Notes under the pieces: model-generated | Seen by the model: only the letters and a program-made list of their open reading frames with translations | Database searches by the model: none | What the model was told of the DNA's origin: nothing | Part shown: positions 20,860 to 26,878 of the stretch, one piece after another | How positions within the stretch are numbered: the stretch's first letter is position 1 | Layout of the letters: each line of letters begins with the position of its first letter | Source of the DNA: Streptomyces sp. NBC_01717 | GTDB taxonomy: Bacteria; Actinomycetota; Actinomycetes; Streptomycetales; Streptomycetaceae | Assembly (NCBI RefSeq): GCF_036248255.1 | Contig: NZ_CP109178.1 | Span: 2,914,001-2,978,000, forward strand | Length of the DNA stretch: 64,000 bases | Direction of reading: 5' to 3' | Program-made: the position numbers and the translations under genes

Positions 20860-21813
20860 TCAGCCGCGGTCGTACGCCGCGACCAGCTCGCCGGCCCGCT
20901 TCACATCGGCGGCGATCGCCACCAGCAGGTCGTCGAGCGAGTCGAACTTCGCCATCCCGCGGACGTACGCGAGGAAGTCGACGGAGACATGGAGTCCGTA
21001 CAGATCAAGACCCACACGGTCGATCGCGTACGCCTCCACCGTCCGCTCCGTGCCGTCGAACTGCGGGTTCGTGCCGACCGAGATCGCGGCGGGCATCGTC
21101 TCGCCGTTCGCGTTCAGCCAGCCCGCGTACACGCCGTCGGCGGGGATCGCGGTGTGCGGCAGGGTCTCCACGTTCGCCGTCGGGAAGCCCATGTCGCGAC
21201 CGCGCTGTGCGCCGCGGACCACGATGCCCTCGACGCGGTGCGGACGGCCCAGGATCTCGGCGGCGCCCGCCACATCGCCCTCGGCGACGAGCCGGCGGGT
21301 GAGGGTGGAGGAGAACGGCTCGCCGCCGCCCGCCTCGCCGCTCACATGCAGATCGATGACCTCGACGCTGTAGTCGTACGTCGCGCCGAACTCGGTGAGA
21401 AGCTGCACGTTCCCCGCGGCCTTGTGGCCGAAACGGAAGTTGGGACCCTCGATGACGAGCTGCGCGTGCAACTTGTCGACCAGCACCTTCACGATGAAGT
21501 CGGCCGGCGCCAGCTTCGAGAACTCGGTCGTGAACGGCAGGATCAGCAGCGCGTCCACTCCCAGCCCGGCCATCAGCTCGGCGCGACGGTGGTGCGGGGC
21601 CAGCAGCGGCGGATGGCTGCCGGGCCGTACGACCTCGCTGGGGTGCGGGTCGAAGGTCACGACGACCGAGGGCACGCCCAGCTCCCGCGCGCGGTCCACG
21701 GCCCTGCCGATGATCAGCTGGTGTCCGCGGTGCACCCCGTCGTAGGAGCCGATGGTGACGACGCTGCGTCCCCAGTCCTGGGGGATGTCCTCCAAGCCAC
21801 GCCAGCGCTGCAC
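20860..21813 (-). CDS. ribF: Bifunctional riboflavin kinase/FAD synthetase
   Basis: This 317-residue enzyme makes FMN from riboflavin and then FAD. The N-terminal adenylyltransferase domain has VTIGSYDGVHRGHQLII (Tyr where Phe is usual in GxFDGVHxGH) and the C-terminal kinase domain has GRDMGFPTANVE with the conserved PTAN. The length is typical. It lies 43 bp downstream of the large protease-like gene on the same strand and ends at the shared terminator. Confidence 0.95.
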   Translation of the reverse strand: MQRWRGLEDIPQDWGRSVVTIGSYDGVHRGHQLIIGRAVDRARELGVPSVVVTFDPHPSEVVRPGSHPPLLAPHHRRAELMAGLGVDALLILPFTTEFSKLAPADFIVKVLVDKLHAQLVIEGPNFRFGHKAAGNVQLLTEFGATYDYSVEVIDLHVSGEAGGGEPFSSTLTRRLVAEGDVAGAAEILGRPHRVEGIVVRGAQRGRDMGFPTANVETLPHTAIPADGVYAGWLNANGETMPAAISVGTNPQFDGTERTVEAYAIDRVGLDLYGLHVSVDFLAYVRGMAKFDSLDDLLVAIAADVKRAGELVAAYDRG

Positions 21814-21856: not shown

Positions 21857-24800
21857 TTATGCAGGTCTAAGACTGCCATGCCCCCGGCCCGGCGCCTGCA
21901 TCGGCATCGTCATCGCGGTGGACAGGGTCTCCACGGTCCGCCGCGCGCCGGGGCCGACGACGACCGCCCACTCCTGCGGCGCATCGGCCAGCCATCCGGT
22001 GACCAGCTGGGCGAATCCGGGCACGTCACGGGCCAGTTCGACCAGTCTGCGGTCGAAGCGGGCCGCTCCTTCGGGGGTGCGGACGAGCAGCATCCCGGTG
22101 CGGTGGACCAGCGCTCGGGTACGGACCGGCGCACGCCGGGCGGATCCGGTCGCCGCTGCACAGAGCAGTGCGTCGAGCACGACCGGGTCACGGTGGGCGC
22201 CCTGCTCGAACTCCAGCAGCACCTCCAGCAGCTCGGCGCGCAGCGCACCGGAAGCCGGGGTGCCGGGCACGGCCAGCACCCCGGCGAGCGCGCCACGCAC
22301 GGGTGCGGGGGCCGGACGGTCCCGCAGCAGACCGCTTATCAGGGGCAGCAGCAGGGCGCGGGCGGCGGGCCCGTGCTCCAGCCTGTGGTCGATGTACTCA
22401 GCGACATGCGCGCCGCCTTCCGGATGGCTGTCGACGTACGCCCGCACCAGACCGGCCGCGTGCAGGGCCAGCGCCGGGGCGTCGATCGCGGCGAGTGAGC
22501 GCAGCACCTCGCCCGCACCGTCCCCGGGCCGGGTGAGCGCCTCCCGGAACGCGGCGATCACCGGCTCGCGACGGGTCGGCAGGGCGACGACGAGCTCGGC
22601 CGCGGACAGATGCGGATCGCCCTGCACGAAGACCCGCAGAGCCTGCGGCAGATAGCGGTCCCGGGTCTGCGGATCGCGTACGAGGAGGGTCAGCGCGGCT
22701 CCGTGCAGGTCGACGTCGGCGGGGTGGGCCAGCAGGGCGAGCGCGGAGCGGCGCAGCAGTGCACGGTGGGCTTCGGCGGTGGCATGCGGTGCGGCGAGAA
22801 GCCCGTACGTGGCGGCGGCGCCCCGCCGGGCCCGCCGGCCGCCGTCGCGGGCCCAGCGCTCGACAGCCCGGCACAGCGCGGCCGGATCGTCCTCGGCCAG
22901 CGCGGTGAGCAGCTCGTCGGCGCGCGGGTGGACGGTCGCGACGAGGGCGTCGGTCAGATCGTCGACGGCGAGGTCACGACGGGCGAGGAGGAGAGCCTGC
23001 GCGGCGGCGGCGACGGTGGGCCGCATCGCCACACCGTCCTCGGCGGGCAGCGGGCGCTCATCGGTGAACCAGCGACAGAGCAGGGGCTGCACGATCCGGG
23101 GCCTGGCGACGAGCCGCCTGGCCACCACATCCAGGAACCGCTCCTCGCCGCTGTCCCCGCCCTCGTCACGACACGCGACGGCCCGGCCCCGCCGACCGTC
23201 GCGGTCGCCGTCCCACCCGTCTCCGCGCGGCGGGCCGTCCGCGGGCACCAGCCGCCGCAGCAGGTCGATCCGGTCCGCCTCGGGCAGCCGCAGCCGCCGC
23301 CAGAACCACGGTCCGAACTCGGCGTACGCCCCCAGGCGGCGTCGGCGATGTCCCGGGCCGGGCGGGACATCGCGGGCGCCTTCTGGCCCCCCAGTCCCTC
23401 CCTCGACGCCGGACCGCCGGACGATGCGACCGGCGAGAAGCCGCAGCACCTCCACATACGGCCCGGCATCGGGCACCCGGAGCAGTGTCTGCGACAGGAG
23501 GTGAGCGGCCCACCAGGAGGCGTCGCGGAGCGGGCCGGCGTCCCCGGCCCCGCCGGGCCGAGCAGCGCCCTCGTCCGGACCGGCCGCAGCCGTCGGGATC
23601 ACGGTGCCCTGCCGCCGGACTGCTGTGGCCGGGTCGTCCGTCCTTGTGGACAGCAGGTCGAAGGCCTCGACCAGATCGGCCGGCCGGTCCATGGCGTCGA
23701 TCAGATCGGCCAGCCGGTCGGACAGCGCGGCAGCACCTTGCCTGCGACCCAGGAGCAGGAGGGCCTGGATCACCGGGCCGATCCGATGCCGCGGTACGGG
23801 GAGCGTGTGAGGCTCGCGCGAGGGCGTCGCTCCGGAAGCCGCGTCGGCCCGCCGCTCCTGCCCCCGTACAAGTCCCCGCTCGGAGGCAGCCGACGCCCGG
23901 CAGCCGGGATGCGGGCTCCGCTGCGCCGGAACACATTCCTCCGCCACCCTGGCCCCACCGCCCGGAACCTCCTCGTACCACCGGTGCACCAGCGACCGCA
24001 GCGCCCTGTCCAGGTCCAGGTGGGCGCCCTGCACCCAGTCCCCCAGCTCCTCGTGCACGAAGCGGTAGCCCGCGCCCGCGGGGACCAGCAGGCCCTCGGT
24101 GAGGACCGCCGACGCCCATCCCGTGCGCCAGGGGAAGATCCCCTCGAACGCCGCGCGGTCCAGCTCCCCCTGCCCCGGCCCGAGACAGCGCCGCGCCGCT
24201 TCGTGGACCTGCCCCGTCACCCGGGCGGCCAGCCGTCGCACCGCCGTGCCCCTGAGCGTCGGACGGGACGCCGCGGCGATCCGGACCGCGACGCGCAGGC
24301 ACATCAGGTCCAGGTGGGCGGCGAAGACGTCGTCCGTGTCCGGCTGCCCGGCCACGTCTCCGGGGAGCGCCGCGCGTACCTCGGCGAGCAGGCGCAGGGT
24401 GAGCGGATGCCGGTCGTGGCCGGGAGCGAGGGCGCCGGCCGGGATGGCATACCGCTCCCGGGCGCGCTCGGCCTGGCTCGCGGTGAGGTCGGCGAGCCGG
24501 ACGGCGGTCGGCAGCCGACGGGCCGGCCTGGCGGGACGGTGCAGCGCTCCGGGCGGGTAGAGCGCACCGGCCGTCTCCCAGTGTTCGGGCCGGCAGGCGA
24601 TCACCAGCCGTGCCCGGTTGCTCCGCAGCCAGTCGGCCGTTCGTTCCGTCCACCGGTCCAGCCGGTGAGCGAGGACGGGCGGCATCTCCTCGGGGCCGTC
24701 CAGCAGAACGAGCAGCGGACGCCCGGAATCGGCAGCGAGCCGGGCCACCCGCTCGGGGGTGGCCGTCGCCATGTCACCGCCGGCCCCGGCCGCCGTGACG

Positions 24801-25756
24801 ATCCGCCCGGCCTGCCCGAGCGTGCGGGAGATCGCGTCGGCGACCGAGGCATCGTCGGCCAGCAGATCGGCGCCGCGCAGCCAGAGGGTGAGGGCGGGGT
24901 CGCAGCCGCGGGCCCGGCGGGCGGCGAGCGCGGCCAGTTCGGTGGTGCGACCGGTGCCGGGCTCCGCGACGAGGCCGAGCACGACCGCGGGGCTTTCCCC
25001 GGCGGCCGTGAACGCCGTGAACTCCGCGGTGACGTCCGGGCGTTCGACCGGGTCGGGCCAGGCGCCCGGGCCTCCGGCCCCGATGGACATCGCGGCGAGC
25101 TGCAGGGCACCGGCAAGGTTGAGGTCGCGTCCGTATCCGGGGACGGTCGTCGCATTGCGCCGCAGCAGCGCGCTCAGCGGCTCGACGGTGCTCGCGCCCA
25201 CCAGCGGCACGGCGAACCCGGCGGCGGTGTGTCCGCCGCGCAAGGCGGTGCCCACCACGGCGATGACCGCACCGCTGTCCGGATCGAGCACGGGCCCGCC
25301 GACCGCCGCCCCGCGCAGCCGCAGGGCGTCTCTGCCGTCCGTGCCGAGCGCCAGCTCCATCGCGGTGCCGACCCGGTAGGAGCGGTCGGTCGCGGTGTAC
25401 GTCACCGGGGCCACACCCAGCACGCGCGCCTCACGCCAGCCGTGGGCGGCGATGCGTACGTACGTACCGGCCTCGATCCGGTCCCGCAGGACGATCGGCA
25501 GCGGCTCCACGCCGAGCACATCGAGTCCCCCGGTGTGCACCAGCGCGAGGTCCAGCTCCGGGAGCGCGGTGATGGCGTCGGCCGCGACGCGGCAGCTGCG
25601 GTCGCCTGTCCCGTGCAGGACGAGTCGCAGCAGGCCGTCGACCGCTTCGTGGCTGGTGACGACCGTGCCGCGGTCGTCCGCGACGAACCCCGTCCCTCGC
25701 GGCCGGCCGGCCGGATCGCAGATGCGCACCAGCGTCGACCGGTCCCCGCTTCCCAT
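21857..25756 (-). CDS. Large trypsin-like/P-loop fusion protein with substituted catalytic residues
   Basis: This 1299-residue protein joins an N-terminal trypsin-fold region (residues 1 to about 195), a P-loop NTPase-like domain (about 240-470) and a long alpha-helical C-terminus resembling TPR/HEAT-type repeats. The protease part has TSHEAVDG (His36) and ELDLALVHT (Asp69), but GAAVGGPVLDPDSG has Val152 where trypsins have the nucleophile Ser (GxSGGP). The P-loop reads GLVAEPGTGRTT with Arg270 in place of Lys, although a Walker B (PLLVLLDGPEE, Asp353) is present. The layout recalls STAND-type protease-NTPase proteins. It sits between truB and ribF. The ATG at 25756 begins MGSGDRSTLVRI. Function unknown. 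Confidence 0.85.
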   Translation of the reverse strand: MGSGDRSTLVRICDPAGRPRGTGFVADDRGTVVTSHEAVDGLLRLVLHGTGDRSCRVAADAITALPELDLALVHTGGLDVLGVEPLPIVLRDRIEAGTYVRIAAHGWREARVLGVAPVTYTATDRSYRVGTAMELALGTDGRDALRLRGAAVGGPVLDPDSGAVIAVVGTALRGGHTAAGFAVPLVGASTVEPLSALLRRNATTVPGYGRDLNLAGALQLAAMSIGAGGPGAWPDPVERPDVTAEFTAFTAAGESPAVVLGLVAEPGTGRTTELAALAARRARGCDPALTLWLRGADLLADDASVADAISRTLGQAGRIVTAAGAGGDMATATPERVARLAADSGRPLLVLLDGPEEMPPVLAHRLDRWTERTADWLRSNRARLVIACRPEHWETAGALYPPGALHRPARPARRLPTAVRLADLTASQAERARERYAIPAGALAPGHDRHPLTLRLLAEVRAALPGDVAGQPDTDDVFAAHLDLMCLRVAVRIAAASRPTLRGTAVRRLAARVTGQVHEAARRCLGPGQGELDRAAFEGIFPWRTGWASAVLTEGLLVPAGAGYRFVHEELGDWVQGAHLDLDRALRSLVHRWYEEVPGGGARVAEECVPAQRSPHPGCRASAASERGLVRGQERRADAASGATPSREPHTLPVPRHRIGPVIQALLLLGRRQGAAALSDRLADLIDAMDRPADLVEAFDLLSTRTDDPATAVRRQGTVIPTAAAGPDEGAARPGGAGDAGPLRDASWWAAHLLSQTLLRVPDAGPYVEVLRLLAGRIVRRSGVEGGTGGPEGARDVPPGPGHRRRRLGAYAEFGPWFWRRLRLPEADRIDLLRRLVPADGPPRGDGWDGDRDGRRGRAVACRDEGGDSGEERFLDVVARRLVARPRIVQPLLCRWFTDERPLPAEDGVAMRPTVAAAAQALLLARRDLAVDDLTDALVATVHPRADELLTALAEDDPAALCRAVERWARDGGRRARRGAAATYGLLAAPHATAEAHRALLRRSALALLAHPADVDLHGAALTLLVRDPQTRDRYLPQALRVFVQGDPHLSAAELVVALPTRREPVIAAFREALTRPGDGAGEVLRSLAAIDAPALALHAAGLVRAYVDSHPEGGAHVAEYIDHRLEHGPAARALLLPLISGLLRDRPAPAPVRGALAGVLAVPGTPASGALRAELLEVLLEFEQGAHRDPVVLDALLCAAATGSARRAPVRTRALVHRTGMLLVRTPEGAARFDRRLVELARDVPGFAQLVTGWLADAPQEWAVVVGPGARRTVETLSTAMTMPMQAPGRGHGSLRPA

Positions 25757-25895
25757 GGTCCGACGTTAGGTCGGCAGTGATCGGCGCGAGAACCACTCGG
25801 AGCAAACGCGCCCCCAAGTGCACCCCTGGTTCACTCCGAGCGCCTGCTCGTGGGGGTGAATTCGTGGGTTCCGGTGGACAGACACTCCGAGGGGG

Positions 25896-25933
25896 ATCGT
25901 GGAGCGGGTACGGGGGGCTGCCCGCTCCACGAT
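25896..25933 (-). terminator. Hairpin downstream of truB
   Basis: A perfect 13-bp stem (25896-25908 with 25921-25933) with a 12-base loop lies 45 bp beyond the truB stop on the minus strand. No U-tract follows. It separates the translation block from the protease-like gene, which begins 140 bp further on. Confidence 0.6.
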
Positions 25934-25978: not shown

Positions 25979-26878
25979 TCAGCCGAAGACGGCGAGGCTC
26001 TTGGCCTTGCCCTTCTGCTCCTCGACCAGTACCAGGAAGGTTCCGTCGGGCCCGAAGACCGCGACCGGGCCCGGCGGGTACGAGGGCATGTCCAGCCGCA
26101 CCCCGTTCAGCAGCAGCTTGGCCCGCTTCTCGTCCACGTCCCAGCGGGGGAACGCGGCGGCGGCCGCCTCCGCGACCGGCATCACGGTCAGCTCCTCCTG
26201 GTGCTGATCCAGCGTCCGCGCCGCATCGAGACCGTACGGACCGACGCGGGTGCGCCGCAGTGCGGTCAGATGCCCGCCGACACCCAGCCCGGCGCCGAGG
26301 TCACGGGCGAGGGCGCGGATGTACGTACCGGAGGAGCAGACGACGGAGACGACCAGGTCGACGACCGGGGTCCCGTCCTCCGCGACCGCCTCGCGGACGT
26401 CGTAGACGTTGAAGGACGAGATCGTCACCGGCCTGGCCGGGATCTCGAACTCCTCGCCGCCGCGCACCCGCGCGTACGACCGCTTGCCGTCGATCTTGAT
26501 GGCGCTGACCTTGGACGGCACCTGCATGATCGCCCCGGTCAGCGCCGCGACACCGGCGTCGATGCCCTCACGCGTGACGCCCGACGCATCGGTGGACGAG
26601 GTGATCTCGCCCTCGGCGTCGTCCGTGACGGTGTCCTGGCCGAGCCGGATCGTGCCGAGGTATTCCTTCTCGGTCAGTGCGAGATGGCCGAGAAGCTTGG
26701 TGGCCTTCTCGACACCGAGAACGAGAACGCCGGTCGCCATCGGGTCCAGCGTGCCGGCGTGCCCGACGCGACGGGTGCGGGCGATACCGCGCATCTTGGC
26801 GACGACGTCGTGCGAAGTGAAGCCGGACGGCTTGTCGACGATGACAAGGCCGTCCGGCGTCCTGTTCTGCTGTGTCAT
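25979..26878 (-). CDS. truB: tRNA pseudouridine-55 synthase
   Basis: TruB converts U55 of tRNAs to pseudouridine in the T loop. The 299-residue protein has the N-terminal [11 protein letters not shown] segment and the catalytic motif [14 protein letters not shown], whose Asp is the nucleophile. The ATG at 26878 overlaps the rbfA stop (ATGA), placing it in the rimP-nusA-infB-rbfA-truB block common in bacteria. Confidence 0.97.

Follow-up and report, generated by a model that had tools for sequence, protein, structure and literature searches.

What can a bacterial protein do if it has the domain plan of an NLR (nucleotide-binding, leucine-rich-repeat-like receptor) and has lost both the active site of its protease domain and the lysine of its P-loop? 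The question is raised by a gene of Streptomyces sp. NBC_01717 situated in a stretch of 64,000 nucleotides of contig NZ_CP109178.1 (positions 2,914,001 to 2,978,000), referred to below as the window. An initial annotation made from the sequence described the product as a protease-NTPase fusion with the nucleophilic Ser and the P-loop Lys replaced. Comparison of homologues indicates that this double departure from the catalytic norm is real and family-wide in a conserved NLR-like protein, which probably works by binding and switching, not by cutting. The gene and its parts are located as follows (window coordinates).

21857..25756, minus strand: gene for a pseudo-HtrA / NACHT (NLR-like) / helical solenoid protein (P0001, 1299 amino acids); a single open reading frame (ORF), with an ATG start in 58/58 orthologues examined
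25157..25735, minus strand (residues ~8-200): HtrA-type chymotrypsin-fold domain, which extends over about residues 3-200 and looks catalytically dead by its residues
23966..25144, minus strand: NACHT NTPase and winged-helix region, NLR-like, residues ~205-597
21998..22897, minus strand: alpha-helical solenoid, residues ~954-1253, placed by mapping residues 841-1140, the confidently modeled portion of orthologue P0112

The family set consists of 241 proteins, namely the window's own, the best 120 of 2505 and the best 120 of 1727 matches from two homology searches; together with 119 ORFs from loci they give 360 N-termini, 349 of them unique and 348 or 346 scorable at a given position. Loci were taken as the best 80 of 534 in one search and as up to 30 per genome search. 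The set is thus biased towards the best-listed matches, and many of its entries are unnamed; the named sources are Streptomyces, Streptacidiphilus, Wenjunlia, Actinacidiphila, and one "[Kitasatospora]", genera which we take to belong to Streptomycetaceae. Substitutions were counted as minimum changes on a tree of 348 leaves rooted arbitrarily on L056, where the median site changes 23 times.

The N-terminal domain is homologous to HtrA/Trypsin_2 proteases in sequence and fold, as indicated by alignments and by a Pfam Trypsin_2 match over residues 21-167 (33.8 bits vs a cut-off of 27.6); no PDZ domain is matched by Pfam in this protein. Two of its residues deserve exact placement.

25646..25648, minus strand: Glu37, occupying the position of the catalytic His according to alignments and residue counts, with His36 adjoining
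25301..25303, minus strand: Val152, occupying the position of the nucleophile Ser195 according to alignments and residue counts

The nucleophile box reads G149-AAV-GGP, so that Val152 sits where HtrA proteins have Ser, and residue 150, which corresponds to the oxyanion-hole Gly193, is Ala. Asp69, initially named as a candidate, aligns with the catalytic Asp. The initial choice of His36 as the catalytic His was most likely one residue off: in alignments to HhoA, Deg1, and HtrA, proteins of known structure, the stretch T34-G41 runs without gaps (TSHEAVDG against TNAHVVDG) and brings Glu37 onto the catalytic His, and a profile-profile comparison by hhalign with five Trypsin_2 proteins of the same genome (E 1e-8) also puts that His on residue 37. 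A single MAFFT alignment gives the opposite register; made with two trypsin-nSTAND1 proteins that are more distant, it sets their His on His36 while shifting the conserved Thr. Most likely, then, Glu37 takes the catalytic place and His36 is its probably non-catalytic neighbor, a one-residue bulge being formally possible.

Across the family, residue 37 is Glu in 308 sequences, Gln in 33, Arg in 4, Ala in 1, and never His (n = 346). Position 152 holds Val in 143 members, Ala in 124, Ser in 44, Ile in 16, Thr in 15, Cys in 3, Arg in 2, Gly in 1, and a gap in one (n = 349), and position 69 is Asp in 181, Gly in 156, Asn in 5, and Ala in 4 (n = 346). In the 52/346 that retain the oxyanion Gly, the nucleophile position is always occupied by Ala (51) or Cys (1); wherever Ser is found there instead (44 members), position 150 is Glu, Gln, Leu, Val, Ala, or Pro. 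Consequently, Ser195 is paired with Gly193 in 0/346, and all four active-site residues occur together in 0/346 even if His36 is counted. With residue 37 used instead, 127 sequences keep none of the four, 161 keep one, and 58 keep two. No Ser within the nucleophile loop is conserved in 85% of sequences or more. Judged by these counts, the catalytic loss is family-wide and no peculiarity of this copy; what was initially pictured as a degenerate resident version reflects a trait of the family, all 346 scorable members being without the catalytic set.

The tree separates what has been kept from what has been let go. At a minimum, 24 changes are needed at position 152 and 36 at position 69, as against 6 for His36, 1 for Gly153, and 0 for Pro155. 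These counts argue that catalysis is not conserved, whereas the loop and the probably non-catalytic His are. Thr34 (345/346) and His36 (340/346) are nearly invariant, which makes them candidates for a functional site in the pseudo-domain.

One might suppose that the family is still proteolytic, either in its Ser-bearing orthologues or, in this copy, through some other nucleophile, and the presence of Ser152 in 44/349 and of Cys in three members speaks for it. However, Gly193 is missing from all 44, and no member has His37. Asp69 accompanies Ser in 15 of the 44 vs 181/346 overall, so that the Ser-Asp association which retention of Ser for catalysis would predict is not seen, and position 152 has changed at about the rate of the median site. 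Activity through Ser in the orthologues was rejected on the absence of His37 and of Gly193 alongside Ser, and continuing proteolysis in any form appears very improbable. From its residues, the protease looks dead across the sampled family. The three proteins with Cys152 are the Streptomyces orthologues L014, L019, and L075, the last of which also has a long Gly/Thr/Pro-rich insert separating the P-loop from Walker B.

The second domain was initially called STAND (signal transduction ATPases with numerous domains). This label stands and can be sharpened: by fold and profile similarity, residues ~205-597 form a NACHT module with a winged-helix domain (WHD) and its conserved His, closest to NLRP3, NLRC4, and NOD2. 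The Pfam NACHT profile does not match this copy at E ≤ 1; it matches 8/35 aligned members at E ≤ 0.1, with a best value of 6.2e-5. The P-loop reads GTGRTT and lacks the Lys of hydrolytic NTPases.

24947..24949, minus strand: Arg270 of the P-loop, where Lys is expected; it aligns with the Lys of control NACHT proteins

The protein retains Walker B (LLVLLDGPEE), as initially read, with Asp353 and Glu356, and also has the sensor-1 Arg389 and the WHD His568. Residue 270 is Arg in 343 of 348 members, Leu in five, and Lys in none, vs Lys in 29/30 control Streptomyces PF05729 loci (counted by eye), a replacement beyond chance. These controls are 30 of 73 PF05729 matches across 13 Streptomyces genomes; in one (L203) the P-loop is not recognizable, and one of the 29 with Lys (L206) lies below the Pfam cut-off and reads as an FtsK-like ATPase. 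The initial annotation had proposed a search for orthologues with Ser and Lys intact, which would make this copy a simple pseudogene, and the counts answer it: Ser occurs without the oxyanion Gly, and Lys does not occur. By this comparison, Arg in the P-loop characterizes the family as a whole. The five Leu270 proteins (P0129-P0133, from Streptacidiphilus where the source is named) have a P-loop reading GLTTEL, one step farther from the standard.

The pocket around Arg270 has been held remarkably constant. On the tree, Arg270 changes once, to Leu; Gly267, Gly269, and Glu356 never change; the single change of Asp353 is an unreadable X; and Pro451 also stays within 0-2 changes. The WHD His568 is His in 332/349 and the sensor-1 Arg389 is Arg in 293/348. 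Three different Arg codons are in use at position 270 among 67 genes, which were selected by a motif including the Arg, so that the codon spread alone is informative. These data bear on the proposal that the protein is a pure structural scaffold, with no ligand chemistry left, the NACHT fold kept for its shape, and nucleotide unbound. The complete lack of Lys270, the five Leu proteins, and the replacement of the sensor-1 Arg in 55/348 would fit such a state. Against it, Gly267, Gly269, Asp353, Glu356, and Pro451 change 0-2 times and Arg270 once, as against 23 changes at the median site, and the Arg is written in three codons; because pocket residues rarely change while the codons vary, the pocket appears to be under selection, and a purely structural role seems unlikely.

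The third part of the protein was recognized in a modeled orthologue: in P0112, residues 841-1140 are predicted as a helical solenoid with a predicted local distance difference test (pLDDT) score of 71-93. Searched with the full-length orthologue, Foldseek listed HEAT proteins of the importin and PP2A-A types, whose superposition was loose, with template-modeling (TM) scores of 0.06-0.27 among the 50 matches listed; against viral proteins, the same tool gave chiefly serine proteases and polyproteins and was uninformative. With the solenoid taken from the model, the order of domains is that of an NLR: effector, NACHT/WHD, and repeat sensor.

Is the gene alive? The median ratio of nonsynonymous to synonymous substitutions (dN/dS) is 0.235 for the protease fold, 0.223 for the NACHT part, and 0.237 for residues 860-1285, with 0.54 for the linker (139-147 pairs). 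Of 81 genes, 67 entered the calculation and 14 failed a filter (ORF above 900 amino acids plus the P-loop motif including Arg); the comparison was restricted to 147 pairs at 85-98.5% identity. On these estimates, purifying selection acts with similar strength on all three parts, as befits a living gene. The view that we are looking at a decaying gene or an assembly artefact can point to the lost catalytic residues and to a few orthologues split into two frames; it is refuted by a dN/dS of about 0.24 in each domain, runs against the conserved start codon and upstream hexamer (described below) and the 2505 database proteins found at E ≤ 0.001, and is scarcely credible. A recent pseudogene or one-off substitution is likewise ruled out by the residue counts, the tree, and dN/dS. 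One of the split orthologues is at L057, where the 9 kb fetched yielded no truB; this gene may be decaying, or the break may stem from a sequencing error.

The initial annotation had also stressed the position of the gene between truB and ribF, and this position is general.

25979..26878, minus strand: truB, the upstream neighbor (Pfam TruB_N)
20860..21813, minus strand: ribF, the downstream neighbor, 43 bp past the stop codon (Pfam FAD_syn and Flavokinase)

truB precedes and ribF follows the gene on the same strand in 95/100 gene-bearing loci; among the remaining five, the record or stretch ends early in three (L143, L161, and L163), and the second flank was not found in two (L057 and L073). 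In 24 of 25 gene-less genomes, truB and ribF are separated by 100-636 bp in which no trace of the gene was detected, and in the other (G032) ribF was not matched. The gene was matched in 34/41 Streptomyces genomes (in G017 as a fragment) and in 24/41 Streptomycetaceae genomes, representing 9/17 genera. A sample of the class searched with residues 1-600 gave 7/118 genomes, all of Streptomyces, the window's genus, and in the samples searched with these residues the gene was met in Streptomycetaceae alone; the NACHT profile gave 6/98, five from Streptomyces and one weak match outside it (E 5e-8, 98 of 405 positions). Because of the truB-ribF synteny on the one hand and the gene-less genomes on the other, the gene appears to be resident at one site and dispensable. 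Of the housekeeping role suggested initially, residence is therefore retained, while "housekeeping" is too strong for such a distribution.

The interval between truB and the gene bears its own conserved elements.

25757-25863, minus strand: conserved non-coding block that includes both the hexamer and the inverted repeat listed next
25763..25768, minus strand: TAACGT, a -10-like hexamer (TANNNT) 6 nt 5′ of the ATG, possible leaderless promoter
25830..25860, minus strand: inverted repeat TTCACCCC-N15-GGAGTGAA, possible operator, inside the conserved block
25898..25931, minus strand: stem-loop CGTGGAGCGGG/CCCGCTCCACG, terminator-like, in the truB-gene interval

A TANNNT motif just ahead of the ATG is the pattern expected for leaderless mRNA in Streptomyces. 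Here it lies 6-7 nt ahead of the start codon in 58/58 orthologues vs 0/58 in a control window 30 nt farther up; the count covers 58 of the 59 loci where the match starts at residue 1, with L143 omitted for its different offset. The conserved stretch also holds GGGGGCGC. A relaxed form of the repeat pattern was found in 71/80 close Streptomyces loci (the best 80 of 534), 14/19 genus-sample loci, 2/2 further Streptomyces loci, and 0/24 gene-less loci, and it occurs once in the window. The strict repeat is present in 56 of the same 80 loci and in 4/19 genus-sample loci. Taken with a 12-16 bp spacer, it was found in 5/21 whole Streptomyces genomes (19 of which matched the gene, G017 by a fragment), at this gene in 5/5 and with an extra site in G019; the window's own genome has one site. 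A regulon built on the strict repeat was sought in the 21 genomes and none was found, the strict form not being general. The stem-loop, in its strict pattern, is found in 45/80 Streptomyces gene loci (again the best 80 of 534), 0/20 other gene loci, and 0/24 gene-less loci. A sub-threshold match to the Rfam family Guanidine-II (E 0.3) lies inside the coding region and was taken as chance. Altogether, the gene apparently has its own predicted promoter, and the arrangement suggests that its control is separate, with ribF possibly included in its transcript. The initial idea of a pseudoenzyme with a regulatory or scaffold-like resident role is in line with the purifying selection, the synteny, and this promoter-like sequence.

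Among known systems, the closest in plan are the NACHT/NLR proteins (NLRP3, NLRC4, NOD2, and bNACHT), which share with this protein the fold, the order effector, NACHT/winged helix, and C-terminal repeat-like domain, and the motifs Walker B DGxxE, sensor-1 Arg, and WHD His; the bNACHT layout, as given in PMC12169576, matches the same order. Unlike them, this protein has an Arg P-loop, a dead HtrA effector, and a helical solenoid in place of leucine-rich repeats, and its gene stays at one fixed chromosomal site with no known immune role. With HtrA/Deg proteases (S1C, Trypsin_2) it has fold and sequence homology in common, but it lacks their catalytic His, Ser, and oxyanion Gly and has no Pfam PDZ match. 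A precedent for a pseudo-HtrA domain at work is MamO, a natural HtrA pseudoprotease of magnetotactic bacteria: according to PMC4794232, its Thr "nucleophile" is dispensable, position 193 is Glu, and the alleles H116A and D149A yield small magnetite crystals. MamO differs in retaining His and in having a TauE transporter domain and a metal site, whereas here Glu or Gln stands at the His position and the partner domain is NACHT.

The combination of both domains in one chain has a parallel in LypA of the CARD-NLR-like LypABC system of Caulobacter. According to PMC13236601, LypA carries a trypsin-like domain followed by an ATPase domain without conserved Walker residues, as here, and LypABC is an NLR-like machinery serving the release of a gene transfer agent. 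LypA, in contrast to this protein, requires Ser262, has three domains of which one is CARD-like and none a C-terminal solenoid, and acts with the partners LypB and LypC. Inactive trypsin domains and inactive STAND NTPases have a precedent in the iSTAND/VMAP systems, described in PMC7159879 among predicted conflict systems of multicellular bacteria; the paper reports nearly no iSTAND in actinobacteria. Such systems include MoxR and vWA components, whereas the immediate neighbors here are truB and ribF, with no MoxR or vWA genes alongside.

These parallels prompt the question of whether we are dealing with a working antiphage NLR, bNACHT- or CARD-NLR-like, in which killing is left to a separate protein recruited by the dead HtrA domain. 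The bacterial NLR architecture, the inactive trypsin domains in effector position and the inactive STAND proteins of predicted conflict systems (PMC7159879), and LypA, which works with an NLR partner (PMC13236601), all lend it some color. Conversely, the site is fixed between truB and ribF, no cognate effector gene was seen at this locus, LypA needs the protease Ser that is lost here, and PADLOC recognized no known defense system below E 0.05 (the nearest being OloA, E 0.078, 10.2 bits), nor did NCBIfam give more than a weak match (E 0.22). An antiphage function is thus doubtful, and on present evidence the protein looks like a signaling or adaptor device of the resident chromosome rather than a nuclease- or protease-type killer.

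The reading we favor, with moderate confidence, is that of a nucleotide switch built like an NLR, in which a non-catalytic binding module of HtrA fold serves as the effector; this reading is suggested by the similar constraint on the pocket and on the dead effector fold. In this scheme, the solenoid would sense a ligand or partner protein, and the NACHT pocket would bind ADP/ATP through Arg270, Walker B, the sensor-1 Arg389, and the WHD His568, with slow or no hydrolysis. A change in nucleotide or assembly state would then expose or cluster the dead HtrA domain, which might bind a peptide, a protein, or a true protease. Several facts weigh against it. The full-length orthologue model is weak outside the solenoid (mean pLDDT 60.9); the pocket is not uniformly kept, sensor-1 Arg389 having become Gly, Thr, Leu, or Ser in the 55 members mentioned; 7/41 Streptomyces genomes do without the gene, hence its role is dispensable; we infer vertical descent from synteny; the relaxed upstream element is present in 5/18 loci of other genera; and the pseudo-active domain may be passive. 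A bolder form, which we put forward tentatively and hold to be less probable than not, is that of a domesticated, fully non-catalytic bacterial NLR, its immune-receptor plan converted into a lineage-specific intracellular switch of Streptomyces with nucleotide binding but no hydrolysis at its Arg P-loop, a dead HtrA domain as protein-binding output, and its own leaderless promoter and operator.

Work on bacterial NLR-like proteins has centered mainly on phage-defense genes whose effectors and NTPases are active. A family devoid of both catalytic signatures and yet selected at one chromosomal site across many members of Streptomycetaceae offers a natural test of the NLR architecture without catalysis, and it bears on whether bacteria, as animals do, keep NLRs for ordinary regulation. 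It is also a warning for annotation: the database names "serine protease" and "trypsin-like peptidase" are very probably wrong here. No literature on this family was found in a search with slight coverage of subscription journals, and a query with SCO5710, which we assumed to be the S. coelicolor name, returned nothing.

Finally, the same genome encodes two trypsin-nSTAND1 fusions in tandem on contig C2 (L180, 8487-12836 and 3621-8036, both minus strand). With 1449 and 1471 amino acids, they also join trypsin and STAND in one chain; unlike the present protein, they keep a standard GFSGGP box and a GPSGSGKSS P-loop (GxxGxGKS), belong to nSTAND1, and are unmatched by the family search, which has one match in the genome. 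The pair has no PADLOC match and may represent active counterparts or a separate conflict system.

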